Source: Phycisphaerales bacterium
GTDB lineage: Bacteria > Planctomycetota > Phycisphaerae > Phycisphaerales > UBA1924
Length of the DNA: 64,000 nucleotides
NCBI GenBank assembly: GCA_029260345.1
Contig: JAJDDK010000006.1
Span: forward strand, 620,001 to 684,000
Direction: 5' to 3'
Part shown: positions 44,760 to 57,316 of the stretch, piece after piece
Position numbering within the stretch: the stretch's first letter is position 1
Layout of the letters: every line of letters begins with the position of its first letter
Translations under genes and position numbers: made by a program
Notes under the pieces: generated by a model
The model's database searches: none
The model's input: the letters and a program-made list of their open reading frames with translations, nothing else
Told to the model about the DNA's origin: nothing

Positions 44760-46508
44760 TCATTCCTCTTCGATCGTCTCGCGAACGACTTCGTCGATGG
44801 TGGTTTGTCCGTTGTAAATGGCTTCCAGTCCGCATTCGCGAAGCGTGCGCATGCCGCGCTTCTTCGCTTCCGCCTTAAAGACGGACATGCTGGTTTCGTT
44901 CATGATCATGTCGCGCAGGCCGTCATCGAGCACCAGAATCTCGAAGATGCCCATGCGGCCCTTGTAGCCCGAGCCGTGGCAATGATCGCAGCCGCGCCCG
45001 CGATACAGCTGGCGACCGGCGACATGTTCCGGCGTGAGGCTGAGCTCCATGAGCTGCTGCTCGGTTGGCTCGTATGCTTCCTTGCACTTCGGGCAAATCA
45101 TTCGCACGAGACGCTGCGCCACGATGCCTTCGATGGTGGCGGTCAGAAGGAAGGTCTCAAGGCCAAGATCTATCAGTCGAACAATGGAGCTTGGCGCATC
45201 GTTGGTGTGCAACGTGCTGAACACAAGGTGACCTGTGAGCGACGCCTGCACGGCGATCTGCGCAGTTTCAAGGTCGCGAATCTCACCGACGAGAATGATG
45301 TCGGGGTCCTGACGAAGGAAGCTGCGCAAGCATTTTGCATAGGTCAGGCCGACATCCGTGTTGATCTGGCACTGGCACAGACCATCGATATCGTATTCGA
45401 CCGGATCCTCGGCCGTCAGGATTTTGGTGTCAACGGTGTTGAGCGATGCAAGTGCGGCGTACAGCGTCGTCGTCTTGCCGGAGCCGGTCGGCCCGGTCAC
45501 GATGACAATGCCGTTGGGCTTGTGCATCAGCGTTTCGACAGTGGCGAGGTCTTTCTCACCGAAACCGACGCGGTCAATGGCGAGTTCGACGTTTGAACGG
45601 TCGAGCACACGCATGACCACGGATTCCCCGTGCATGGTTGGAAGCACGCTGACGCGCAAGTCAATTGGATTGCCGGCGACGACGAGTTCGATGCGACCGT
45701 CCTGCGGCATGCGCCGTTCGGCGATGTCGAGACTCGCCATGACTTTGACGCGGCTCACAATCGCGGGCGCGAGATACCGAGGCGGCGGGACCATTTCATA
45801 AAGCACGCCGTCGATGCGGTACCGCATCTTGAATTCGTCTTCGAAGGGTTCGAAGTGGATGTCCGAGGCTTTGTCTTTGATAGCCTGAAGCAGAACGAGG
45901 TTCAGGAGTTTGATGACCTTGTTGTCTTCGGCCGCGTCCATGACGGCGTCGAGGTCGATGGAGTCGCCGCGCCCTTCGAGGGACATGAACTTTTCGTCGG
46001 ACGCGATGTCGCTGACGAGGTCCGTGACGGACTCGGCTTTGGCGTAGAACTTCTTGACGAGAGCGTCGACTTTGGTCGCGTCGGCGACGAAGGCTTCGAC
46101 TTTGAACCCCATCAAGAGGCGGAGGTCGTCGACGGCGCGGAAGTTGTCCGGGCTCTTCAGGGCGACCTTGAGCCGTTTGGTTGCGGCGTCGTATTCGAAA
46201 GGAATGACTTGGTACGCCTGAGCGGTCTCCGCCGGGATCGAGTGGGCGGTTTCATCCTCAATCTCAATTTCGTCGAGATCGATGAAGCCCATGCCTGCCT
46301 GGCCTGCAAGGGCCTCCTGGACGTCGCGTTCAGAGATATAGCCAAGCTCGACAAGCAATTGGCCAATCGGCGCCTTGCGGGTCTTTTGGATGCCCAGCGC
46401 CTCATGGACCTGTTCGCGCGTGACCTTGCCCATCTTGGTGAGGACACGGCCGAGCTTGCGGCCCTTCAGTTCATTCAGGTTCATCTTATTGATTGCCTGT
46501 GTGGCCAT
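44760..46508 (-). CDS. pilB: Type II secretion / type IV pilus assembly ATPase (GspE/PilB)
   Basis: A 582-residue hexameric ATPase. The N-terminal domain (about 10-150) is of the MshEN type with paired LGxxLxxxG repeats (KLGRVLTKMGKV and IGQLLVELGYI). The core has Walker A GPTGSGKTTTLYAAL, the Asp box ILTAEDPVEYD, Walker B ILVGEIRDLETAQIA and the His box LVFSTLHTNDAPSS. The zinc-binding tetracysteine is CPKC plus CDHCHGSG. MshEN domains can bind cyclic di-GMP, although the first repeat has lysine where the binding motif has arginine. The 192-base gap upstream carries an 8-bp inverted repeat. Confidence 0.95.
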   Translation of the reverse strand: MATQAINKMNLNELKGRKLGRVLTKMGKVTREQVHEALGIQKTRKAPIGQLLVELGYISERDVQEALAGQAGMGFIDLDEIEIEDETAHSIPAETAQAYQVIPFEYDAATKRLKVALKSPDNFRAVDDLRLLMGFKVEAFVADATKVDALVKKFYAKAESVTDLVSDIASDEKFMSLEGRGDSIDLDAVMDAAEDNKVIKLLNLVLLQAIKDKASDIHFEPFEDEFKMRYRIDGVLYEMVPPPRYLAPAIVSRVKVMASLDIAERRMPQDGRIELVVAGNPIDLRVSVLPTMHGESVVMRVLDRSNVELAIDRVGFGEKDLATVETLMHKPNGIVIVTGPTGSGKTTTLYAALASLNTVDTKILTAEDPVEYDIDGLCQCQINTDVGLTYAKCLRSFLRQDPDIILVGEIRDLETAQIAVQASLTGHLVFSTLHTNDAPSSIVRLIDLGLETFLLTATIEGIVAQRLVRMICPKCKEAYEPTEQQLMELSLTPEHVAGRQLYRGRGCDHCHGSGYKGRMGIFEILVLDDGLRDMIMNETSMSVFKAEAKKRGMRTLRECGLEAIYNGQTTIDEVVRETIEEE

Positions 46509-46616
46509 GGCTACCTCGGGAGGCTGCCGCCCCCCTGACCGAGAACCTGTCCCCGGACCGTCCGGTGCAACAATCTTCGCGGCTGAGGGCCGACCTGTTC
46601 ACATGGAAAAGCGATA

Positions 46617-46643
46617 TTTGTCGCTTCAATTAGATGCGACAAA
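46617..46643 (-). promoter_or_regulatory. Inverted repeat in the gap before the pilB gene
   Basis: TTTGTCGC (46617-46624) and GCGACAAA (46636-46643) are perfect inverted repeats 11 bases apart. They lie in the only AT-rich stretch of the 192-base gap between pilT and the downstream ATPase gene. It could be an operator or RNA hairpin. No promoter elements close to consensus could be fixed. Confidence 0.35.
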
Positions 46644-46700
46644 TGGATTTTTATGCTATATGGAGGCCGCACTGGTGGGCTGTAAGACCCAATCACGTGC

Positions 46701-47831
46701 TCACTCCTCCTTAGTCGCGGCTTCTGGTTCGGCCTCATCGAGCTCAGTTCGGCCAATCCGTCCGCCCGCCTTATGGACCTTATCGGTGAGTGCTTGTGGG
46801 TTCTTCGACTTGTCTACCATCTCCTCGGCGGAGATCATGCCGCGGGAGTAGAGGCTCCAAAGATGGTCGTCGAGGAGCTGCATTCCGAACTTCTTCCCGG
46901 TCTGAATCGAGGAGTCGATTCGGAAGGTCTTGTTGTCTCGGATGAGGTTGGAGATGGCGGGCGTGATGAGGAGGAACTCGTACGCCGCGACCATGCCCTT
47001 GGTGTCCATACGCGGCAGCAGGGCCTGGCTGAGGATCGCCAAAAGCACCGTCGAGAGCTGCACTCGCACCTGATTCTGCTGAGTGACCGGGAAGGCGTCA
47101 ATCACACGGTCGATCGTCTTGGCGGCGCCGGTGGTGTGGAGAGTCCCGAACACCAAGTGGCCCGTCTCAGCCGCTCGAATGGCGGATTCGATCGTTTCAA
47201 GATCTCGCATTTCACCAACGAGGATGACGTCAGGGTCCTGACGGAGAGCACGCCGCAGGCCCTCAGCGAAGTCAGGCACGTCCGTCCCGATCTCGCGCTG
47301 ATTGACCACTGATTTCTTGTGCTCGTGGTAGTACTCGATGGGGTCTTCCATCGTGATGATGTGCCGGTCGTACGTCAGATTGATGAAGTTGATCATGCTC
47401 GCCAACGTGGTGGTCTTGCCTGACCCGGTCGGGCCGGTGACAAGGAACAGACCTCGCGGACGACGAACGAGCTCAGAGACAGCGCCGGGAAGGCCGATCT
47501 GCTCGAAGGTGAGCAGTTTGTTCGGAATCTGGCGGCAGACAATCGCGAGATTGCCCTTCTGCCGGAAGACCGACACGCGGAATCGAGCCGCCGATCCGTA
47601 GGCGAAACCGAAGTCGCACCCACCCACTTCCTGAAGTTCCTGTTGCGAGCGCTCTGGCGTGATCGCTTTCATCAGCGTGACCAGGTCGTCAGGGTCCAGC
47701 ACCTTGGTTTGAAGGTTGCGCATCTCCCCGTGCAATCGAAGCGTCGGTGGACGCCCGACGGTGAGGTGCAAGTCGCTCGCGCCCGTCTTGATCACGGTGT
47801 CGAGCAGTCGGTCAATTTGAATCGTGGACAT
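46701..47831 (-). CDS. pilT: PilT-like twitching/retraction ATPase
   Basis: A 376-residue ATPase of the PilT family. Visible signatures are the N-terminal ASDLHLTVGRPPTLRLHG, the PilT form of Walker A (VTGPTGSGKTTTLASMINF), the Asp box MEDPIEYYH, Walker B VILVGEMRDLETIESAI and HLVFGTLHTTGAAKTIDRV. The C-terminal LLITPAISNLIRDNKTFRIDS is typical, whereas the AIRNLIRE form occurs in E. coli relatives. It lacks the GspE-type zinc cysteines. A retraction ATPase points to a dynamic pilus rather than a pure type II secretion system. It follows the first ATPase gene by 54 bases. Confidence 0.94.
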   Translation of the reverse strand: MSTIQIDRLLDTVIKTGASDLHLTVGRPPTLRLHGEMRNLQTKVLDPDDLVTLMKAITPERSQQELQEVGGCDFGFAYGSAARFRVSVFRQKGNLAIVCRQIPNKLLTFEQIGLPGAVSELVRRPRGLFLVTGPTGSGKTTTLASMINFINLTYDRHIITMEDPIEYYHEHKKSVVNQREIGTDVPDFAEGLRRALRQDPDVILVGEMRDLETIESAIRAAETGHLVFGTLHTTGAAKTIDRVIDAFPVTQQNQVRVQLSTVLLAILSQALLPRMDTKGMVAAYEFLLITPAISNLIRDNKTFRIDSSIQTGKKFGMQLLDDHLWSLYSRGMISAEEMVDKSKNPQALTDKVHKAGGRIGRTELDEAEPEAATKEE

Positions 47832-47885
47832 CGGGCGGCTCCCCTATCGCGTCGATGGAAGAAATCTCAGTGAATGCGGCAGACC

Positions 47886-49622
47886 TCAAACGGCGTCTGC
47901 GGTTTCCTTTTCATCAGCCAGCGCCGTCAAGCCTTCGACCTGAACGATGCGGGCGATTTCAGCAGGCGAGGTCGTGCCCTTCAGGATCTTCACCTTGCCG
48001 TCGTAGAGCAGCGGTTTCATGCCTGAAGCAATCGCGGCGGCACGAAGCTCGTTCACCGGCCGCTGATCAAACGCCAACTCACGAATCTTCTGATTCATGA
48101 TCATCATTTCGAAGATTGCTTTTCGCCCGCGATAACCGGAGCCATTGCACGCGTCACAGCCGACCGGCTTCATAATCGTGTGGTTTTTTACATCTTCTGC
48201 GGTGATGCCAGTGAGCCGCAGGAACTTTTGATCTGGCGAGTCATCCGGCGCCTTGCACTTCGGACAAAGCACACGAATAAGACGCTGTGCCATGACCGCC
48301 TGAATGGATGAAGCAACCAGGAATGGCTTCATGCCCATGTCCACCAGTCGCGTAATCGCACTGGGCGCATCGTTGGTGTGAAGCGTGCTGAACACAAGGT
48401 GGCCCGTCAGCGCGGCCTGAATCGCGACTTCCGCGACTTCCTTGTCTCGAATTTCACCAACCAGAATGATGTTCGGCGCCTGACGCAGCATGGCGCGAAG
48501 AATCAACGGGAATGAAAGGCCGATGTCCTCGCGCACCTGGCACTGATTGATGCCGGCAAACGCGTATTCAATCGGATCTTCAGCGGTAATGATCTTCTTG
48601 TCCGGGCGATTCAACACGTCGAGCGCCGAATACAACGTGGTCGTCTTACCCGAACCGGTCGGGCCGGTCACCAAAAAGATGCCGTTGGGACGGCGAATGA
48701 TCTTGTTGAAGGCTTCAAGGTTCTCCGGCTCAAACCCGAGATTCTCGAGGCCGATGCGCACGGAGTCCGGCCGCAGAATACGCAGCACCACGGATTCGCC
48801 GTGGTACGCCGGGCAAGATGACACACGAAAGTCAATCGTGTCCTGATCGACGGGCATCTTGATGCGGCCGTCCTGTGGAATACGGCGCTCGGAGATATTG
48901 ATGCCGGCCATCAGCTTCATACGCGCGAGAATGGCATTCTGCATGCGCTTGGGAAGGTTATCGCGTTCAATACAGACACCGTCAATGCGGTAGCGCAAAC
49001 GCACGCGATCATTCATCGGCTCAAGGTGAATATCCGAAGCGCGCATCTTCACCGCTTCGATGATCATGCGGTTCACGAGCTTGACGATCGGCGCATCAGT
49101 GGCTGTTCGGTCAATCGAAGCATCAACGGATTTATCCACCGACCGGTCGATTGACTCCGTCACCAGCGACTCGTCCGCCTCCACCATGCGCGGCTGGCCG
49201 AGCTTCGTATCCAGAAACTGCTTGATGCGTCCTTTGGACGCAATGCGCGGCTCAACCTCAGCGTTAAGGCGGAATCGCAGCATGTCGAGCAATTCGAGAT
49301 TCAGCGGATCGTGAACGACCAGTTGCAGCCGGCCATTGGTCTTTGAAAGCGGCAGAATCAGGTGCTTGCGGATGAGATCTTCAGGGATCAGCTTCGCATC
49401 AACCTCCTCGGCAACGTCGTTCGGGTCCACGAATGGCAGCCCAAACTGCTTGGCGAGGGCTTTGGCGACGTCCTCTTCTTTGCAAAGCTCCGCTTCGACC
49501 ATCGCCTCGCCGATGCGCTTTCCTGATCCTTTGGCGAGCTTGAGGCCCTTTTCGACGGCGTCCGGCGTTGCGGCGCCCATCTCCACCAGGATTTCACCGA
49601 TCTTCTTGCGACTTCGTGCCAT
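47886..49622 (-). CDS. Second GspE/PilB-type assembly ATPase, first gene of the operon
   Basis: A 578-residue ATPase parallel to the one at 44760. The N-terminal MshEN-like domain has KKIGEILVEMG and RIGEAMVEAELCKEEDVAKAL. The core has GPTGSGKTTTLYSAL, TAEDPIEYAFAG, ILVGEIRDKEVAEVA, LVFSTLHTNDAPSA, and zinc cysteines CPKC and CDACNGSGYRGR. A linker with repeated short serine/aspartate motifs (SIDRSVDKSVDASIDR, about residue 140-160) separates the N-domain from the core and is not present in the other ATPase. The start at 49622 gives MARSRKKIGE; an in-frame ATG lies 30 bases upstream. The 199-base gap to the divergent coaB should hold the operon promoter, but none could be fixed. Confidence 0.93.
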   Translation of the reverse strand: MARSRKKIGEILVEMGAATPDAVEKGLKLAKGSGKRIGEAMVEAELCKEEDVAKALAKQFGLPFVDPNDVAEEVDAKLIPEDLIRKHLILPLSKTNGRLQLVVHDPLNLELLDMLRFRLNAEVEPRIASKGRIKQFLDTKLGQPRMVEADESLVTESIDRSVDKSVDASIDRTATDAPIVKLVNRMIIEAVKMRASDIHLEPMNDRVRLRYRIDGVCIERDNLPKRMQNAILARMKLMAGINISERRIPQDGRIKMPVDQDTIDFRVSSCPAYHGESVVLRILRPDSVRIGLENLGFEPENLEAFNKIIRRPNGIFLVTGPTGSGKTTTLYSALDVLNRPDKKIITAEDPIEYAFAGINQCQVREDIGLSFPLILRAMLRQAPNIILVGEIRDKEVAEVAIQAALTGHLVFSTLHTNDAPSAITRLVDMGMKPFLVASSIQAVMAQRLIRVLCPKCKAPDDSPDQKFLRLTGITAEDVKNHTIMKPVGCDACNGSGYRGRKAIFEMMIMNQKIRELAFDQRPVNELRAAAIASGMKPLLYDGKVKILKGTTSPAEIARIVQVEGLTALADEKETADAV

Positions 49623-49821
49623 GCGGCGACCATCCCGTGCTGTTTGATCCATGTCCGCCGCGGGCCACCCGCACCGGCGAAATCCACCCAATCCCAGGCG
49701 CCATCCGACGCTGGAAAACCTGCACATCACCCAGAGGCCGAACGCCTCGGGCATTATGCTGACGACCGGAGACCCCGGCAATCCTCGATAAAGAACGAAT
49801 GGCGAGCGCCGCAGAAATGGT

Positions 49822-50508
49822 ATGACAGAACACCATCCACTACGACGAGTTGTGATCACAGCGGGCCCGACTCACGAGCCGATCGACGCCGTGCGTTATC
49901 TCGCCAACCGCTCCTCAGGACGGCTGGGCATCGCTCTGGCGGCGGAAGCGGAACGTCGTGCATGGGACGTGACACTCCTCCTCGGACCGGTCGAGCTCAG
50001 CCCGAACTATACGCAGGTTCGTATCAAGCGGTTTACAACGGCTGCTGATCTTCAAGCGCTCTTGATGACCGAGGCAAAGACCTGCGATGTCCTCATCATG
50101 GCTGCGGCCGTCGCTGACTTTCGCCCCCCATCGACTTCGCAGGGCACAAAAATCCGCCGTTCTGACGGGACGATCAACCTAGTGCTGGAGTCAACACCCG
50201 ATCTTCTCGCCGAATTTGCGGCTTCTCGTCGCCCGGGACAACTCATCATCGGTTTTGCTCTTGAGTCCCGGGATCTGCTTGAGGTCTCCGCTCGTGAGAA
50301 GCTGGCTCGAAAAGGCGTCGACGGCATCGTGGCCAACCCACTCGAAACCATGGGCGCCGACACGATTGAGGCCAGCCTGATCTGGCGTGACGCTCCGGCT
50401 GAGCAAACACCGGGCCCAATCTCAAAGGACGCTTTCGCCAGTTGGCTCTTGGACCTCGTCGAGAAACGACAAGATTCCAAAGAGGCGCATCTTCCATCTA
50501 CTGGATAG
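49822..50508 (+). CDS. coaB: Stand-alone phosphopantothenate-cysteine ligase (CoaB)
   Basis: A 228-residue enzyme that couples cysteine to 4'-phosphopantothenate in coenzyme A synthesis. Signatures are VVITAGPTHEPIDAVRYLAN, RSSGRLGIALAAEAERRAWD, MAAAVADFRP and KIRRSDG. IGFALES and AREKLARKGVDGIVANP follow. In most bacteria CoaB is fused behind the decarboxylase CoaC; here it is separate, as in some Gram-positives and eukaryotes, and CoaC is not in this window. It precedes top6B by 10 bases, so CoA synthesis and topoisomerase VI probably share a transcript. Confidence 0.9.
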   Translation: MTEHHPLRRVVITAGPTHEPIDAVRYLANRSSGRLGIALAAEAERRAWDVTLLLGPVELSPNYTQVRIKRFTTAADLQALLMTEAKTCDVLIMAAAVADFRPPSTSQGTKIRRSDGTINLVLESTPDLLAEFAASRRPGQLIIGFALESRDLLEVSAREKLARKGVDGIVANPLETMGADTIEASLIWRDAPAEQTPGPISKDAFASWLLDLVEKRQDSKEAHLPSTG

Positions 50509-50518
50509 TCTTTTTCCC

Positions 50519-52549
50519 ATGGCCAACGCACGGAAGCGAACCGCCGCCGCATCAAGCGGTGGCGCCAAGAAGAAGTCAGCGAAGCAGACTGGGGCGAAGA
50601 CCGAGGATCGATCCGCCGAGTCGCTCGCTGGCAAGCAGCGCGAAATCTCCGTTTCTGAGTTCTTTGCGAAGAACCGGCACTTGCTCGGTTTTGATAACCC
50701 GCGCAAGGCGCTGCTCACCACGGTGAAAGAAGCGGTGGACAATGCGCTGGACGCATGCGAAGAAACCGGCGCCTTGCCGGAGATCCTCGTCCGAATTGAG
50801 CATCTCACCGACATCGACGAGAACCGTTTTCGCATCACGGTGCAAGACAATGGTCCCGGTGTTGTGCGCAAACAGATCGACAACATCTTTGGAAAGCTGC
50901 TGTACGGCTCCAAGTTTCATCGCATGAAGATGTCGAGAGGCCAGCAGGGAATCGGTATTTCCGCCGCCGGCATGTACGGCCTGATGACGACTGGCAAGCC
51001 GATGGTCATCGTGACGCGCTCGCGAAAAAACAAACCAGCGCATCACGTTGAACTCGCGATGGACACGACCAAGAACCGTCCGGAAGTCACGGTTGATGTC
51101 GAAACTGAGGACTTTCCGAAACACACTGGAACACGCGTCACGATCGAACTGGAAGGTCGTTACACCAAAGGCCGCACCAGCGTTGATGAGTATTTGGAAC
51201 AAACGGCGATCGCGAATCCGCATGCGCGATTCATCTACATCCCGCCGAGCAAGAGCGGTCCAGACGATGAACAGTCCACGCTTGAAGAATCCGAGGATCT
51301 GACGCCGAGCCCGTCCATTCATGTGCCAGGTGTTGATGAGTCCGAGCTCGCCACCCTTGAGGCAACTACGCAAATCGGCGATGCGATCGTGTTTCCGCGG
51401 ACTGTGGACGAATTGCCGCCGGAGCCGCAAGAGATCAAACCGCATCCGCGCGGCGTTGAAATCGGCACGCTCATGCGGATGCTCAAGCAAACGGAAGAAA
51501 AGAACATCGGACCGTTCTTGCAGAACGAGTTCTGTCGCGTGGGACCGGGGAAATCGAAAGAGATCTGCGACAAGGCAGGGATAACGACGCGCACGTGGGT
51601 CAAGAATGTTGGCCACGCCGAAGCCGAAGCGATTTACAAAGCAATTCAGAAAGTTTCGATCATTGCGCCGCCGCTGGATTGCCTCGCCCCCATTGGCGCC
51701 AAGCAGATTTTGGCCGGACTGCTCAAGGGCGTGCGCGCGGAATTTTACACCGCGTCCACGCGCCCGCCTTCCGTTTATCGCGGAAATCCTTTTCAGATTG
51801 AAGTTGGTGTCGCGTTCGGCGGCGACCTTTCGTCCGATCAGTCCGCGCGGGTCATCCGCTTCGCCAACCGAGTCCCCCTGCTCTACCAGCAGTCTGCATG
51901 CAGTTCATTCAAGGCCGTCGTTGAGACGAGCTGGAAGAACTACGGGTTGAGCCAAGGTCGTAATTCGGCGCCGGAAGGTCCGCTCGTGGTCATGATTCAC
52001 ATGGCGAGCGTCTGGGTGCCATTCACCAGCGAAAGCAAAGAAGCCATCGCCGACTATGACGAGATCCGCAAGGAAATGCGGCTCGCCTTGCAGGAGTGCG
52101 GCCGCAAACTCGGCGCATACTTGCGCCGACGCCAACGCGCCAAGCGCGAAGGCGAACGGCGCAATGTTTACGAGCGCTATATTGGCGAGATTGCCAAAGC
52201 AGTGCATGCGATTGATCCGGACATCAGTGCTGAGAATGTGCGCGACCATCTCATGCAAACGGCCGAGCGACTCACTGCGTTTGCAGATCAGGAGTTCGAC
52301 GAAGAGGGCAAACCCATCAAGAAGCCTCGCTCGCGCGGCGACGACGATGGCTTTGGCGAAGACACCATCGTGATCGATCGTGATCCGAATGGCCCGACCG
52401 GGGCTGGCGAATCCGCAGAAACCGATGCGAAACCGTCGTCGGCACAGCAAATGAGCAAGCCGCGCGGCGGCGGCAAGAAACGACCACGAAAGAAATCACG
52501 AGGCGCCTCGCGCTCGCGGCGCGCCACGGCGTCGGAATCATTGTTTTGA
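50519..52549 (+). CDS. top6B: DNA topoisomerase VI subunit B (GHKL ATPase)
   Basis: A 676-residue ATPase subunit of the type IIB topoisomerase that relaxes and decatenates DNA. A lysine-rich, alanine-rich tail (1-40) comes first. The Bergerat ATPase fold follows: KEAVDNALDACEE (E71, D74), VQDNGPGV (110-115) and GQQGIGISAAGMYGL (141-155). The H2TH region is near FCRVGPGKSKEICDKAG. The transducer has LLKGVRAEFYTASTRPPSVY and ETSWKNYGLSQGR, the switch-loop region. A charged C-terminal extension (about 605-676) ends in basic RGGGKKRPRKKSRG. The start at 50519 follows coaB; the frame is open upstream inside coaB. Partner: the next gene. Confidence 0.94.
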   Translation: MANARKRTAAASSGGAKKKSAKQTGAKTEDRSAESLAGKQREISVSEFFAKNRHLLGFDNPRKALLTTVKEAVDNALDACEETGALPEILVRIEHLTDIDENRFRITVQDNGPGVVRKQIDNIFGKLLYGSKFHRMKMSRGQQGIGISAAGMYGLMTTGKPMVIVTRSRKNKPAHHVELAMDTTKNRPEVTVDVETEDFPKHTGTRVTIELEGRYTKGRTSVDEYLEQTAIANPHARFIYIPPSKSGPDDEQSTLEESEDLTPSPSIHVPGVDESELATLEATTQIGDAIVFPRTVDELPPEPQEIKPHPRGVEIGTLMRMLKQTEEKNIGPFLQNEFCRVGPGKSKEICDKAGITTRTWVKNVGHAEAEAIYKAIQKVSIIAPPLDCLAPIGAKQILAGLLKGVRAEFYTASTRPPSVYRGNPFQIEVGVAFGGDLSSDQSARVIRFANRVPLLYQQSACSSFKAVVETSWKNYGLSQGRNSAPEGPLVVMIHMASVWVPFTSESKEAIADYDEIRKEMRLALQECGRKLGAYLRRRQRAKREGERRNVYERYIGEIAKAVHAIDPDISAENVRDHLMQTAERLTAFADQEFDEEGKPIKKPRSRGDDDGFGEDTIVIDRDPNGPTGAGESAETDAKPSSAQQMSKPRGGGKKRPRKKSRGASRSRRATASESLF

Positions 52550-52614
52550 CGGTTGGAATTGACTCGTCAGACCAGCGAGATCCCAGGCCGACTGCATTCA
52601 AGAAGTAGGACAGA

Positions 52615-53820
52615 ATGGCGAAGAAGAAAGTCTTGCGCAAGAAGAAAGTGAAGCGGAAAACGGACGCCAAGCCGAGCGGCGCGTCATCGCCTGCGCCCAA
52701 GAAGCGAACCAAGCGGAAGAAGTCGTCGGCGTCAGGCCCGGCCCACGCCGCGTCGCAGATTGACGCCTTCGCTTCCAAAGTGGCAGCCGCGGCTCTCAAG
52801 GGAGAGGACCCCTCGCTTGATATTCCTACGCGGGCGCTTTCAAACGTCGCGTTTAACGCGCGGAGCCGCATCATCGAAATGGGCGATGCGACGCAGACGC
52901 GCAGTTTCTTCAATCTCGGGCAAGCCAAGAAATTCATGCAGACCACACTGGTCGGCGCCGGTTGCCGCGAATTGCTCCGCCAGGAAAAAACGACGTCGAT
53001 TCGTGACTTGTTCTATCACTGCAAACACACCATTGAGGGCACTCGAGAGAACACGTTTGACGAGCAGACCGAATCCGACGTCGTGATTGAAGACCTTGAA
53101 GTCGCGCTGGAATCGTTGCGCGAAGAGCTTGGTCTGTTTGCCGAGCCAAAAGGCGCTCTCGTCGGGCCGATGGTGATTGAAGACAAGGGCGACACGATCG
53201 ATCTCACGCGCATGGGTTCCGGCGGGTACGCCGTCCCTTCCATCGTGGAAGAGGACGTGATCCGCATCAAGAAATGCACGGCGGACTTTGTCGTCTTGAT
53301 CGAGAAGGGCGCTGTCTGGAGACGCTTCAACGAAGACCGTTTCTGGAAGCGGCACAATTGCGTGATTGTTCACGGCGGAGGTCAGCCGCCCCGCGGCGTG
53401 CGCCGTCTCCTCTGGAGGCTCCACCACGAGCATGGCCTCCCCGTATTTGTCCTCGTGGATAACGACCCATGGGGCTACTACATCTATTCCGTGGTCAAAC
53501 AGGGGTCGATCAGCCTCGCCTTCGAGAGCCAGCGCATGGCGGTCCCGGACGCAAAGTTCATCGGTATGTCCAGCTTCGATGCGGAGAAGTTTGACATCCC
53601 TGACGCCGTCACCATTCGAGTCAACGAGCGCGATGTCCGCCGGGCCAAAGAGATTCGTGGGTACCCGTGGTTTCAGAAAAAAGAATGGCAGAAAGAGATT
53701 GATCGGATGCTGAAACTCGGCGTCAAACTGGAACTCGAAGCGCTCTCCAGCAAGGATTTCAGCTTTATCACGGAGACGTACCTGCCGCGCAAGCTGCGCG
53801 ACGAAGACTGGCTCGATTAG
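52615..53820 (+). CDS. top6A: DNA topoisomerase VI subunit A (Spo11-like cleavage subunit)
   Basis: A 401-residue DNA-cleaving subunit, homologous to Spo11. The first 40 residues are very basic (MAKKKVLRKKKVKRK, KKRTKRKK). The winged-helix domain holds the catalytic tyrosine Y134 in SIRDLFYHCKH, matching Spo11's RDIFYSN. The Toprim domain has the metal glutamate E230 in FVVLIEKGAVWRRF and the acidic pair D282 and D284 in VDNDPWGYYIYS. GAVWRRFNED and SFDAEKFDIP are family features. Length is near that of archaeal subunits once the tail is removed. It starts 65 bases after top6B, and both subunits have intact catalytic residues. Confidence 0.94.
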   Translation: MAKKKVLRKKKVKRKTDAKPSGASSPAPKKRTKRKKSSASGPAHAASQIDAFASKVAAAALKGEDPSLDIPTRALSNVAFNARSRIIEMGDATQTRSFFNLGQAKKFMQTTLVGAGCRELLRQEKTTSIRDLFYHCKHTIEGTRENTFDEQTESDVVIEDLEVALESLREELGLFAEPKGALVGPMVIEDKGDTIDLTRMGSGGYAVPSIVEEDVIRIKKCTADFVVLIEKGAVWRRFNEDRFWKRHNCVIVHGGGQPPRGVRRLLWRLHHEHGLPVFVLVDNDPWGYYIYSVVKQGSISLAFESQRMAVPDAKFIGMSSFDAEKFDIPDAVTIRVNERDVRRAKEIRGYPWFQKKEWQKEIDRMLKLGVKLELEALSSKDFSFITETYLPRKLRDEDWLD

Positions 53821-55055: not shown

Positions 55056-55871
55056 ATGACCACAACGATGCAAACCATATTTGGCCGCCCGAAAGCGCTC
55101 ATCGGCATGATTCATGTGCGTGCGCTCCCCGGCGTCCCTCAATCAAACCAAACGCTTGAAGAGATCTCCGCGATCGCAGCGCACGAGGCCGCGCTCCTCG
55201 CCAGCGCAGGCTTCGATGGCGCCATCATCGAAAACATGCACGACCGGCCCTACGTGATGAACGTCGGACCGGAAACGGTGGCGGCCATGACACGCATTGG
55301 TCTCGCCGTCAAAGACGCAGCGCCTCAACTCACACTCGGTGTTCAAGTGCTGAGTCTCTCCGGCAAACAAACGCTTGCGATCGCAACCAGCATCAACGCT
55401 CAGTTTGTGCGCATCGAAAATTTTGCAATGGCGCATGTCGCCGATGAAGGCCTCATGGCGACCGCCGAGGCGGGCGAATTACTTCGCTATCGCCGCGCAA
55501 TCAACGCCGAGTCAGTGGCGATCTTCGCTGATATCAAAAAGAAACATGCAAGCCATGCGATCACGGCGGACATTTCGCTCACTGAAGCGGCGAAGACTTC
55601 AGAGTTTTTCCTCGCCGATGGCTTGGTCGTCTCCGGCGCCTCAACCGGCGCCCCAGTCGCTGAGCGCGATCTCCTCGAAGTGCGAAACGCGACCCATCTC
55701 CCCGTGCTGGTCGGATCAGGCGCCACGCCCGAACAGTTGCCTGCCCTGCTTGAGCACGCCGATGGGGTGATCGTCGGTTCATCGCTCAAGCAAAACGGGG
55801 TTTGGAGTGGAGACCTTGATTCGGCCCGTTGTCATGCAATTGCCTCCGCCTTCAAAGAGGCGATTCGCTGA
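55056..55871 (+). CDS. BtpA/SgcQ family TIM-barrel protein
   Basis: A 271-residue protein of the BtpA family (PF03437). The N-terminal ALIGMIHVRALPGVP and the following DGAIIENMHDRPYV are the family signatures. GVQVLSLSGKQTLAIA, QFVRIENF and IFADIKKKHASHAI continue in order. DGLVVSGASTGAPV and VGSGATPEQLPALLEHADGVIVGSSLK form the C-terminal phosphate-binding strands. BtpA in cyanobacteria affects photosystem I, and SgcQ is a putative nucleosidase-like E. coli protein, so the role here is open. ATG 55056 is used; ATG 55068 gives the more conserved N-terminus. Neither has a Shine-Dalgarno. The leader is highly structured. Confidence 0.85.
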   Translation: MTTTMQTIFGRPKALIGMIHVRALPGVPQSNQTLEEISAIAAHEAALLASAGFDGAIIENMHDRPYVMNVGPETVAAMTRIGLAVKDAAPQLTLGVQVLSLSGKQTLAIATSINAQFVRIENFAMAHVADEGLMATAEAGELLRYRRAINAESVAIFADIKKKHASHAITADISLTEAAKTSEFFLADGLVVSGASTGAPVAERDLLEVRNATHLPVLVGSGATPEQLPALLEHADGVIVGSSLKQNGVWSGDLDSARCHAIASAFKEAIR

Positions 55872-55966
55872 TTGCCACTTTCGGGCGGCGCTTCGGTACA
55901 GTGCGCTGTTCCAACGTATTTTCCCGCCCCTCCCGCCGATCACCCTTGAATCACGAGGTGGATCTC

Positions 55967-57316
55967 ATGCGTCCGCGAATGAAAAAAATTAGTTCCTCCT
56001 GCTTTGTTTTCGCTGCGATCGCCGTGGTCTGCTCATGGGCCGCATCAACAGCGCGAGCCTTGGACCCGGCCCAGGCGCCCGTCGCCGTACGCTGGTGGGG
56101 ACAGGGATTCGTCACCATCGAAACATGGTGGGGTCTCACCGTCGCCATTGATCCCTTCAGCCCCGAGCAGACCGGATACACCAATCCTGATGTGAGCGCG
56201 GACCTTGTGCTGGTGACGCACGGTCATTTCGACCATGACAACCCCAGCATTGTGGAAGGCGGCCCATTCGTCGTGCGTGGCTTGACCGACGACGGCGACT
56301 TCCGACCGCTGAATCTCACGCTCGATCGGTTGCCCAACGAGTCCGCCGTCAAACTCGCAAAGACCAGCGAACGTGGCAAGGTCGGGCCGCATCCGATTCG
56401 TATCGAATCGATCAAGTCATGGCACGATGCGGTGGGCGGCGCCGAACGTGGCGCCAACGCAATGTTCCTGATCGAAGTGGACGGCGTTCGCATATTGCAC
56501 TGTGGCGATCTCGGGCAAACCGAATTGACATCGGAGCAAGTCGCCGCCATCGGTCAGCTTGATGTGCTGCTCCTTCCGGTCGGCGGAACATACACCGTGG
56601 ATGGCGCCGCAGCGGCGCAGATCGCGGCTCAGTTGGCCCCACGAAATGTGATCCCGATTCACTACAAAACGCCTGCGCTCAAATTTGATCTTGCCACGGT
56701 TGATCCATTCCTCGCAGCGCTTGGCGATGATTGGACCGAGCGCATCGAAGTTGGAAACACGTTTGCTGTCGCCGCCGCTGTCGAAGGTGAAACGACCGTT
56801 CCAACCGTCGCCGTGCTCCAATACACCCCTTGGGAAGCGCCTGAGTACATCAAAGATGGCCTCGCCAAGATGCGCGAATCTCGATCCGCACTTGCCGCCA
56901 CCATCGAATCTCTGAGCACCAACCAACTGGATCACAAGCCGTCTGACGGCACGCACACCGTGCGATGGAACGGCGAACACACCGCCGGCGCTGAGATCTT
57001 CTTTATGTCGATGGTGTTCAAGGACTCGGATGAATCCGTGCCGCTGATCCGGGTGACGCCGGCCCAGCAACCCGCGGATTATTCCCCCGGCAATCCGGAC
57101 TGGACTGCATCCGAAGAAGCGAATCATCTTCGCCGCACCGGCGATTTCACAGAGCGGTTTGCGTATTTACTCGTCGATGTTGATCCCACCGAAGAGCGCT
57201 ACCCCGCATTCTTCAAGTCGCTTGATGGTTTGTATTCATTGATGGAGACGCACTACGGCAAGCACCATACGAGCGTGAAGAAGAAATTCGAGCTCGCCGA
57301 TTGGCCCAAGGACTGA
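55967..57316 (+). CDS. Exported metallo-beta-lactamase-fold protein fused to a DinB-like domain
   Basis: A 449-residue protein with a Sec-type signal peptide (basic MRPRMKK, then a hydrophobic stretch, cleavage near ARA). The N-terminal domain (about 38-285) is a UlaG/RomA-like metallo-hydrolase with HGHFDHDN (85-92), an HCGDLGQ metal aspartate near 182 and IPIHYKTPALKFD with H233. The C-terminal part (about 297-449) resembles DinB four-helix metalloproteins: RESRSALAATIESLSTNQLD, a histidine in GEHTAGAEIFF and HYGKHHTSV near the end. The fusion is unusual. GAGGTGG about six bases upstream supports the start at 55967; the frame extends further upstream. Confidence 0.8.
   Translation: MRPRMKKISSSCFVFAAIAVVCSWAASTARALDPAQAPVAVRWWGQGFVTIETWWGLTVAIDPFSPEQTGYTNPDVSADLVLVTHGHFDHDNPSIVEGGPFVVRGLTDDGDFRPLNLTLDRLPNESAVKLAKTSERGKVGPHPIRIESIKSWHDAVGGAERGANAMFLIEVDGVRILHCGDLGQTELTSEQVAAIGQLDVLLLPVGGTYTVDGAAAAQIAAQLAPRNVIPIHYKTPALKFDLATVDPFLAALGDDWTERIEVGNTFAVAAAVEGETTVPTVAVLQYTPWEAPEYIKDGLAKMRESRSALAATIESLSTNQLDHKPSDGTHTVRWNGEHTAGAEIFFMSMVFKDSDESVPLIRVTPAQQPADYSPGNPDWTASEEANHLRRTGDFTERFAYLLVDVDPTEERYPAFFKSLDGLYSLMETHYGKHHTSVKKKFELADWPKD

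Follow-up and report, generated by a model that had tools for sequence, protein, structure and literature searches.

An intact topoisomerase VI in Phycisphaerales that probably works beside gyrase in the place of topoisomerase IV

Both subunits of topoisomerase VI are encoded in the window

We analyzed a 64,000-nucleotide stretch of DNA (the window) from a Phycisphaerales bacterium (assembly GCA_029260345.1, contig JAJDDK010000006.1, positions 620,001 to 684,000 of the forward strand), which carries top6B and top6A, the genes for the two subunits of topoisomerase VI (topo VI), a type IIB DNA topoisomerase familiar above all from archaea and plants. Both reading frames are whole and run in the same direction, with the boundaries that an earlier note on this DNA had given, and a gap of 65 bases separates B from A. 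Type 1 and type 2, as used below, are labels that we made for two topo VI A subunits.

50519..52549, + strand: top6B, topoisomerase VI subunit B, 676 amino acids (aa); Pfam, NCBIfam and structure matches, alignment and model
50729..50740, + strand: GHKL ATPase site residues E71 and D74 of B; invariant in 33 sequences
50846..50860, + strand: DNGPG motif of the GHKL ATPase of B, residues 110-114; invariant in 33 sequences
50939..50956, + strand: GQQGIG motif of the GHKL ATPase of B, residues 141-146; invariant in 33 sequences
51668..52156, + strand: transducer domain of B, uninterrupted; PF09239 at residues 384-546, profile positions 1-158 of 159
52214..52546, + strand: C-terminal extension of B, residues 566-676, a helix and then a tail; from the AlphaFold predicted local distance difference test (pLDDT) and the length past the transducer
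52532..52546, + strand: SESLF at the C terminus of B, candidate clamp-binding peptide; the window's copy of a conserved LF tail motif
52615..53820, + strand: top6A, topoisomerase VI subunit A (type 1), 401 aa; Pfam, NCBIfam and structure matches, alignment and model
52615..52752, + strand: Lys/Arg-rich N-terminal tail of A, residues 1-46; 18 Lys plus Arg, 1 Asp plus Glu; residues 1-41 with pLDDT below 50
53014..53016, + strand: catalytic tyrosine Y134 of A; invariant in 19 sequences
53302..53304, + strand: Toprim glutamate E230 of A; invariant in 19 sequences
53458..53466, + strand: Toprim DxD of A, D282 and D284; invariant in 19 sequences

Subunit B matched Topo-VIb_trans (PF09239) at 199 bits (cut-off 24) and NCBIfam NF003218 at 656 bits (cut-off 274), and subunit A matched TOP6A-Spo11_Toprim at 197 bits (cut-off 24.1) and NCBIfam NF003333 at 566 bits (cut-off 465). 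Among solved structures, the best sequence matches were M. mazei topo VI-B for B (E value 6e-147, 494 bits) and S. shibatae topo VI-A for A (E value 3e-79, 270 bits). The transducer region of B aligned to M. mazei B at residues 287-570; H2TH gave no separate domain match, and the stretch from GHKL to transducer aligned to the M. mazei subunit. The catalytic residues listed by the earlier note (E71, D74, DNGPG, and GQQGIG in B; Y134, E230, D282, and D284 in A) were all present and correctly numbered, and were invariant in the alignments of 33 B and 19 A sequences. With all of them kept, we predict, as that note did, an intact and apparently active enzyme.

AlphaFold models built from those alignments had mean pLDDT values of 76 (B) and 74 (A). 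The best Protein Data Bank (PDB) matches to the models were a topo VI-B chain for B (Foldseek E value 1.4e-49) and a topo VI-A chain for A (3.5e-27), with a loose superposition of the whole A chain (template modeling score about 0.5). The Lys/Arg-rich N terminus of A is common in the order, with a median net charge of +11 (41 genes) compared to +3 in other type-1 genes (n = 11), the start codons in this comparison being guessed.

Topo VI is a regular inherited gene in Phycisphaerales

A topo VI-B gene was present in 53 of 61 genomes made up of the window genome (3.40 Mb, 96% complete) and its relatives, and in 191 of 392 Planctomycetota genomes. The earlier note had regarded topo VI as known only from scattered bacteria, a description too narrow for this phylum; topo VI from the Planctomycetes-Verrucomicrobia-Chlamydiae (PVC) group has in fact already been published (PMC11302465). 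Both window subunits are closest to those of other Phycisphaerales (64 to 77% identity), and the nearest named A subunits, at 75 to 77%, come from Phycisphaerales metagenome-assembled genomes (MAGs). The setting is that of an ordinary chromosome, as had been proposed, with a G+C content of 0.57 to 0.59 at the locus compared to 0.57 to 0.63 across the window. Phage records yielded no match, plasmid records yielded three, all haloarchaeal, and one locus matched among viral contigs.

Four genomes of the window's own family had no topo VI-B gene (families and genomes carry f and G codes as labeled in this analysis). Two of these, G014 and G025, retain A, and two, G008 and G229, have neither subunit. 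The A gene of G014 opens a contig, and the absence of B there may therefore come from assembly. The two genes often lie apart: 28 regions held B without A, and in all 24 of the genomes searched, A was found elsewhere. In three loci of family f4 (L157, L158, and L161), A and B lie 2 to 4 kb apart on the same strand without being adjacent. At locus L104, genome G135 has a second, divergent topo VI-A-like gene (a frame of 301 aa, about 33% identical to window A over 247 residues) in addition to a normal A and B.

A tendency to mutual exclusion between topo VI and a second type IIA enzyme

The earlier note had proposed a search for gyrase and topoisomerase IV (topo IV) genes in the same genome. 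It returned one GyrA, one GyrB-type gene, and, in this 96% complete assembly, no second type IIA pair. The single PF00521 gene scores above the gyrase A cut-offs (1025 versus 902 bits; 1002 versus 877) and its product carries two boxes, QGRGGRG and QSRGGKG; the GyrB-type gene is the only match to PF00204.

Across the 392 phylum genomes, topo VI-B was accompanied by one PF00521 copy in 167 genomes, by two or more in 19, and by none in 5; where topo VI-B was absent, the corresponding counts were 92, 106, and 3. The odds ratio for one versus two or more copies was 10, and it rose to 119 among genomes at least 95% complete (50 with one copy and 1 with two or more when topo VI-B was present; 18 and 43 when it was absent). 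In families f1, f2, f4, and f5 of the window's order, 23 of 24 genomes were topo VI positive and all 24 had one PF00521 copy; in f6, all seven genomes were topo VI negative with two copies. The contrast recurred within families: 18 positive genomes with one copy versus 3 negative genomes with two in f38, 7 versus 1 in f73, and 3 versus 2 in f21. A similar contrast in f54 was dropped, the second type IIA gene of G352 (79% complete, 1,320 contigs) being possible contamination. Among 25 named genomes with a type-1 A, which include bacteria of 22 lineages from several phyla, an unplaced archaeal MAG, and a Nanoarchaeia MAG, PF00521 was found in 23 and at exactly one place in 20. Three genomes had extra pieces (in one a fragment that opens a contig, in another two neighboring pieces, and in the third three pieces, two of them adjoining), and two genomes had no match.

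The second copies are likely to encode topo IV. In all 12 of the topo VI-negative, two-copy genomes that we read, one copy had a Gln-bearing GyrA box and the other did not. PF00204 genes numbered two in each of 14 such genomes checked and one in each of 16 others, and none of the 14 contained topo VI-A. The name is likely rather than certified, because four of the five second copies scanned (two from f6, one each from f73 and f38) fall below the cut-offs for gyrase A and for both named parC models and reach only the general type IIA model. The fifth (L089, in G352) belongs to a different topo IV family, PRK12758, at 992 bits.

Several observations weigh against a simple replacement of topo IV by topo VI. 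In addition to those low scores, a degenerate TxRGGxG survives toward the end of 10 of the 12 second copies that we read. The 92 genomes with one PF00521 copy and no topo VI-B, chiefly in f50, f30, and f40, indicate that gyrase alone can suffice, and one well-assembled gyrase-only genome, G229, belongs to the window's own family. Nineteen genomes combine topo VI with two or more PF00521 matches, seven of them in f64, and both enzymes occur together in some genomes of f64, f27, f33, and f72. Across 16 mixed families, the expected difference in copy number was seen in eight, no difference in six, and the reverse in two (f44 and f64). Finally, since genomes of one phylum are related, a Fisher P value overstates their independence. 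A strict reciprocity was rejected, as genomes with both enzymes and with neither exist; what we observe in this phylum is a tendency for genomes with topo VI to have no second, non-gyrase type IIA enzyme, and vice versa.

With regard to G229, it is 98% complete, has one PF00521 and one PF00204 gene with neither topo VI subunit found, and shares its genus with three topo VI-bearing genomes.

Subunits A and B have different histories

Compared with 118 other topo VI regions, window A is 51 to 77% identical to type-1 A subunits and mostly 31 to 37% identical to type-2 A subunits, and window B is 45 to 71% identical to the B subunits found there. The window's order has type-1 A; families f7 to f9 of the same class have type 2. 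In the B tree, bacterial B subunits (54 bacterial rows plus one archaeal-labeled MAG) form a single starred clade with a Shimodaira-Hasegawa-like approximate likelihood ratio of 99, which splits by A partner (97, starred, for type 2; 83 for type 1). In the A tree, type-2 bacterial A subunits group with type-2 A subunits of Nanobdellota (97, starred), apart from one Nanobdellota A (96, starred), and their closer nesting among Nanobdellota is unstarred; bacterial type 1 is placed elsewhere (99, starred). Forcing all bacterial A subunits together, with two archaeal MAGs, was rejected by the approximately unbiased (AU) test (P = 2e-12), and forcing type-2 bacterial B together with Nanobdellota B was weakly rejected (P = 0.03). 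The two subunits have different histories, with two very different A types and one bacterial B clade. The simplest reading of the sequences would be that an ancestor of many planctomycetes exchanged its A, but not its B, for an A of the archaeal type 2. No open-access paper that we found deals with A-only replacement in topo VI. Such separate histories suggest that the halves of the enzyme may be mixed over long distances.

In Nanobdellota (DPANN), two overlapping draws of 60 genomes each gave topo VI-B in every genome. In 20 of their regions that we read, A was of type 2 in 12 and 42 to 45% like the window's in 8, and their B subunits fall outside the bacterial B clade.

That A was exchanged once more, within Phycisphaerales, is likely, though less firmly established. 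Window A and its near relatives group with f5 (84, unstarred), and most Phycisphaerales A subunits are nearer to those of Pirellulales (97, starred). A single origin of the order's A subunits was rejected in our second set of sequences (12 order rows of 81; AU P = 2e-4), which had fewer order rows and more outgroups than the first; it was not rejected in the first set (48 order rows of 95; AU P = 0.078), a result we keep as a caution. The B sequences reject the grouping that would match the split of A within the order (P = 0.004).

These trees are to be read with their sampling in mind. Groups were named only after the trees had been seen, and archaeal sampling was thin (one DPANN phylum, two haloarchaea, and three PDB species, with no Methanococcales B). 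Rows were left out for B matches below 440 aligned residues (first set) or 400 (named loci) and for A matches below 320; 29 of 80 named loci were included, and for the final trees 18 loci were thinned and rows missing one or the other subunit removed. The S. shibatae branch was flagged as long in the IQ-TREE trees, and for that reason no "crenarchaeal" affinity of type-1 A is claimed. The phylogeny that the earlier note had suggested, run here with limited archaeal and no plant sequences, agrees with the old rather than recent acquisition argued there, given the single starred bacterial B clade and the presence of B in 53 of 61 genomes. It speaks against a shared history of the subunits, which the note had not foreseen.

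The B subunits of the order share an LF motif in a variable C-terminal tail

Window B extends 105 aa beyond a point 60 residues past its transducer, and pLDDT falls below 50 at residues 594-598, 601-608, 623-654, and 659-676. Measured in the same way, the order has a median extension of 113 aa, compared to 19 in each of three further planctomycete sets (type 2, 30 sequences; f7 to f9, 10; untyped, 6); all tail counts concern B sequences with a transducer landmark. The tails of the order vary strongly, with an aligned identity of 39% versus 34% for shuffled partners. The dipeptide LF was nevertheless present in 59 of 60 tails (1,000 shuffles: mean 3.3, maximum 9; one tail shorter than 60 aa, of the 61 in the order, was left out) and was the most overrepresented of all 400 dipeptides. 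It was also found in 13 of 17 tails of at least 60 aa from named planctomycete MAGs not already counted (shuffle mean 0.6) and in 3 of 16 tails of other phyla (shuffle mean 0.15). The MAG counts omit four named loci already counted among the genomes.

This motif is a candidate peptide for binding the beta sliding clamp. In the clamp consensus QL[SD]LF, positions 1, 4, and 5 weigh most, and DnaE3 keeps only positions 4 and 5 (PMC3919608). The window's SESLF, in a low-confidence tail, has the L and F of positions 4 and 5 and Ser instead of the Gln of position 1, and so clamp binding is a hypothesis here. Strict clamp motifs (Qxx[LM]F or QLxLxL) occurred in 19 of 113 tails of type-1 bacterial groups, where about 0.3 would be expected: 9 of 61 in the order (shuffle mean 0.20), 3 of 11 in other planctomycete type-1 tails (0.02), 2 of 21 in named planctomycete type-1 tails (0.04), and 5 of 20 in type-1 tails of other phyla (0.03). 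The last are QMPLF, QMALF, QQDLF, and QQEMF in four Nitrospirota and QLALPL in a Syntrophobacter MAG. None was found in 46 other planctomycete tails or in two archaeal MAGs, and one was found in 19 archaeal tails, some of them cut short. An archaeal B tail with QTTLF is that of L352, in the Nanobdellota genome G480.

Does the LF peptide tether topo VI to the clamp behind the replication fork? We consider this possible, with the odds somewhat against it. The near-universal LF in the order and the excess of strict motifs favor it, as do the DnaE3 precedent (PMC3919608) and the copurification of PCNA with both topo VI subunits in a P. abyssi NucS pull-down (PMC4929162). A review of clamp partners includes topo I and topo II alpha for PCNA and, in the rows of its table that we covered, no topoisomerase among the bacterial partners (PMC9690074); weak C-terminal clamp motifs are described for transposases (PMC4549789). 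Our search of the open-access literature found no publication describing topo VI with a clamp motif. However, only 9 of 61 order tails have the key Gln, which the window's own tail lacks, the strict motif is missing from 15 of 20 tails of other phyla, and the 46 planctomycete B subunits of other groups have neither the strict motif nor LF. LF by itself is also unspecific and proves nothing: the window genome's own GyrB has an LF some 30 residues before its end. Of 29 GyrA and second-copy proteins, 27 had no LF in their last 80 residues and the other two had it at least 60 residues from the end. No clamp motifs of DnaE, MutS, or PolA were found for comparison in the DNA examined. In 21 of 59 tails, LF is the very C terminus, often after acidic residues, which also counts against a clamp peptide. 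This arrangement recalls the acidic tip of SSB, an alternative that was set aside as suiting only the C-terminal cases. We offer as conjecture that the B tail with its LF may help to place topo VI near the replication clamp. Such a docking-like conserved tail would be a handle on how a foreign topoisomerase is wired into bacterial replication.

Many Phycisphaerales B extensions also have a second recurring stretch, approximately LDEDGKxV followed by DDGVIIV, ahead of the variable tail.

Relation to known topo VI enzymes

Bacterial topo VI has already been proposed as a substitute for topo IV, in an article that refers to unpublished work in which M. mazei topo VI complemented an E. coli parE mutant, lists families with topo VI, and describes bacteria of those groups as being without topo IV (Allen and Maxwell 2024, PMC11302465). 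The M. mazei enzyme (PDB 2Q2E, 9O0G) is the closest solved relative of window B, at 41 to 44% identity over 535 to 547 aligned columns, and its A is more distant from window A (31%). From their names, we take the families of the published list to be planctomycete. Like the window genome, M. mazei has gyrase too (PMC9348778). Its B subunit, however, has a C-terminal Ig-like domain (PMC9348778, PMC11302465), whereas window B ends in the low-confidence LF tail, where we found no Pfam match and most of residues 594-676 have pLDDT below 50. For S. shibatae topo VI (PDB 2ZBK), the relation is reversed: its A is the best match of window A among solved structures (39%), and its B is much more distant from window B than that of M. 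mazei (292 versus 494 bits). The PVC enzymes of Pirellula staleyi and others come from related bacteria, in a lineage reported to be without topo IV (PMC11302465). The Pirellula-type transducer insertion, a helical bundle, is absent from window B, in which the PF09239 match is uninterrupted, and the Phycisphaerales tail is a further difference from the PVC enzymes described there. New here are the phylum-wide tendency toward exclusion, the split histories of A and B, and the conserved LF tail.

A probable decatenating role beside gyrase

As no topo IV was found in the window genome, topo VI most likely does the job of topo IV. By homology to solved topo VI enzymes, the subunits would assemble as A2B2, with the pair of A subunits holding one duplex. 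ATP binding would close the B pair around a second duplex, A would cut both strands of the first through Y134 with metal held at E230, D282, and D284, leaving 2-nt overhangs, and the second duplex would be driven through the break. Gyrase would set supercoiling, and topo VI, working beside it, would unlink replicated sister chromosomes in the place of topo IV; as a conjecture, tethering by the tail could put the enzyme on newly made DNA. The assembly, the strand-passage cycle, and the decatenating role are all drawn from known topo VI enzymes. We put the probability of a working topo VI beside gyrase, most likely in topo IV's decatenating role, at roughly 75%. Doubtful to us is the fuller scenario of a domesticated archaeal-type decatenase, in which type-1 bacterial B would have grown a flexible clamp-docking tail, topo VI would act on newly copied sister DNA and could stand in for topo IV, and its A would have been exchanged between lineages independently of B.

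The most serious alternative is that topo VI is an accessory enzyme, used for relief of positive supercoils, for breaks in repair or recombination, or for a special segregation step, while gyrase does the bulk of decatenation. Gyrase must do so in those planctomycetes that lack both topo IV and topo VI, and the 92 genomes with a single PF00521 copy and no topo VI-B, the gyrase-only G229 in the window's family, and the 19 genomes with topo VI and two or more PF00521 matches all suit this explanation. We nevertheless think it unlikely, given that related groups differ in having either topo VI or the second type IIA pair and that 20 of the 25 named type-1 genomes have exactly one PF00521 place. 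That the pair could be a Spo11-like or defense-type relative rather than a topoisomerase is suggested by a match of A to the Spo11 fold (Foldseek E value 1.5e-10), but A is far nearer to topo VI-A (3.5e-27), and B carries both GHKL and transducer matches and aligns with topo VI-B over the core; this domain content contradicts such an identity, which we hold to be very improbable. Still less credible is a recent import, a contaminant, or a misassembly. Two archaeal MAGs do have A subunits 60 to 62% identical to window A, but the spread of B through 53 of 61 genomes, the 64 to 77% identities to kin, and a G+C content like that of the neighbors put this explanation out.

A decatenating role for topo VI beside gyrase would have wider consequences. 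In most of a bacterial order, topo VI and gyrase together seem to carry out chromosome separation, and a related family that has no topo VI contains a second type IIA pair, so that why some bacteria have an archaeal topoisomerase becomes a testable question. As a drug target, topo VI would also gain bacterial models in the planctomycetes.

Neighboring genes

The gene upstream of top6B, which begins 10 bases past its end, is as follows.

49822..50508, + strand: coaB-type gene (CoaB domain only, 228 aa), PF04127 at 179 bits; a neighbor outside the topo VI system

Its product has no CoaC half and matches TIGR00521 only at positions 187-390, below the cut-off for that model. The earlier note had read the adjacency to CoaB as a sign of age. 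A coaB match lay near topo VI in only 1 of 118 other topo VI regions, on the opposite strand; the adjacency is not conserved and fails both as such a sign and as a clue to function, and the neighbor is incidental. Scans for promoters and terminators at the locus stayed at chance level, and Rfam gave nothing at curated thresholds. Elsewhere in the window, the minus strand at 44760-49859 encodes three successive type II/IV secretion ATPases, two of them with an MshEN domain, and at 55829-57316 a single protein combines a metallo-beta-lactamase-fold domain with a DinB_2 domain.

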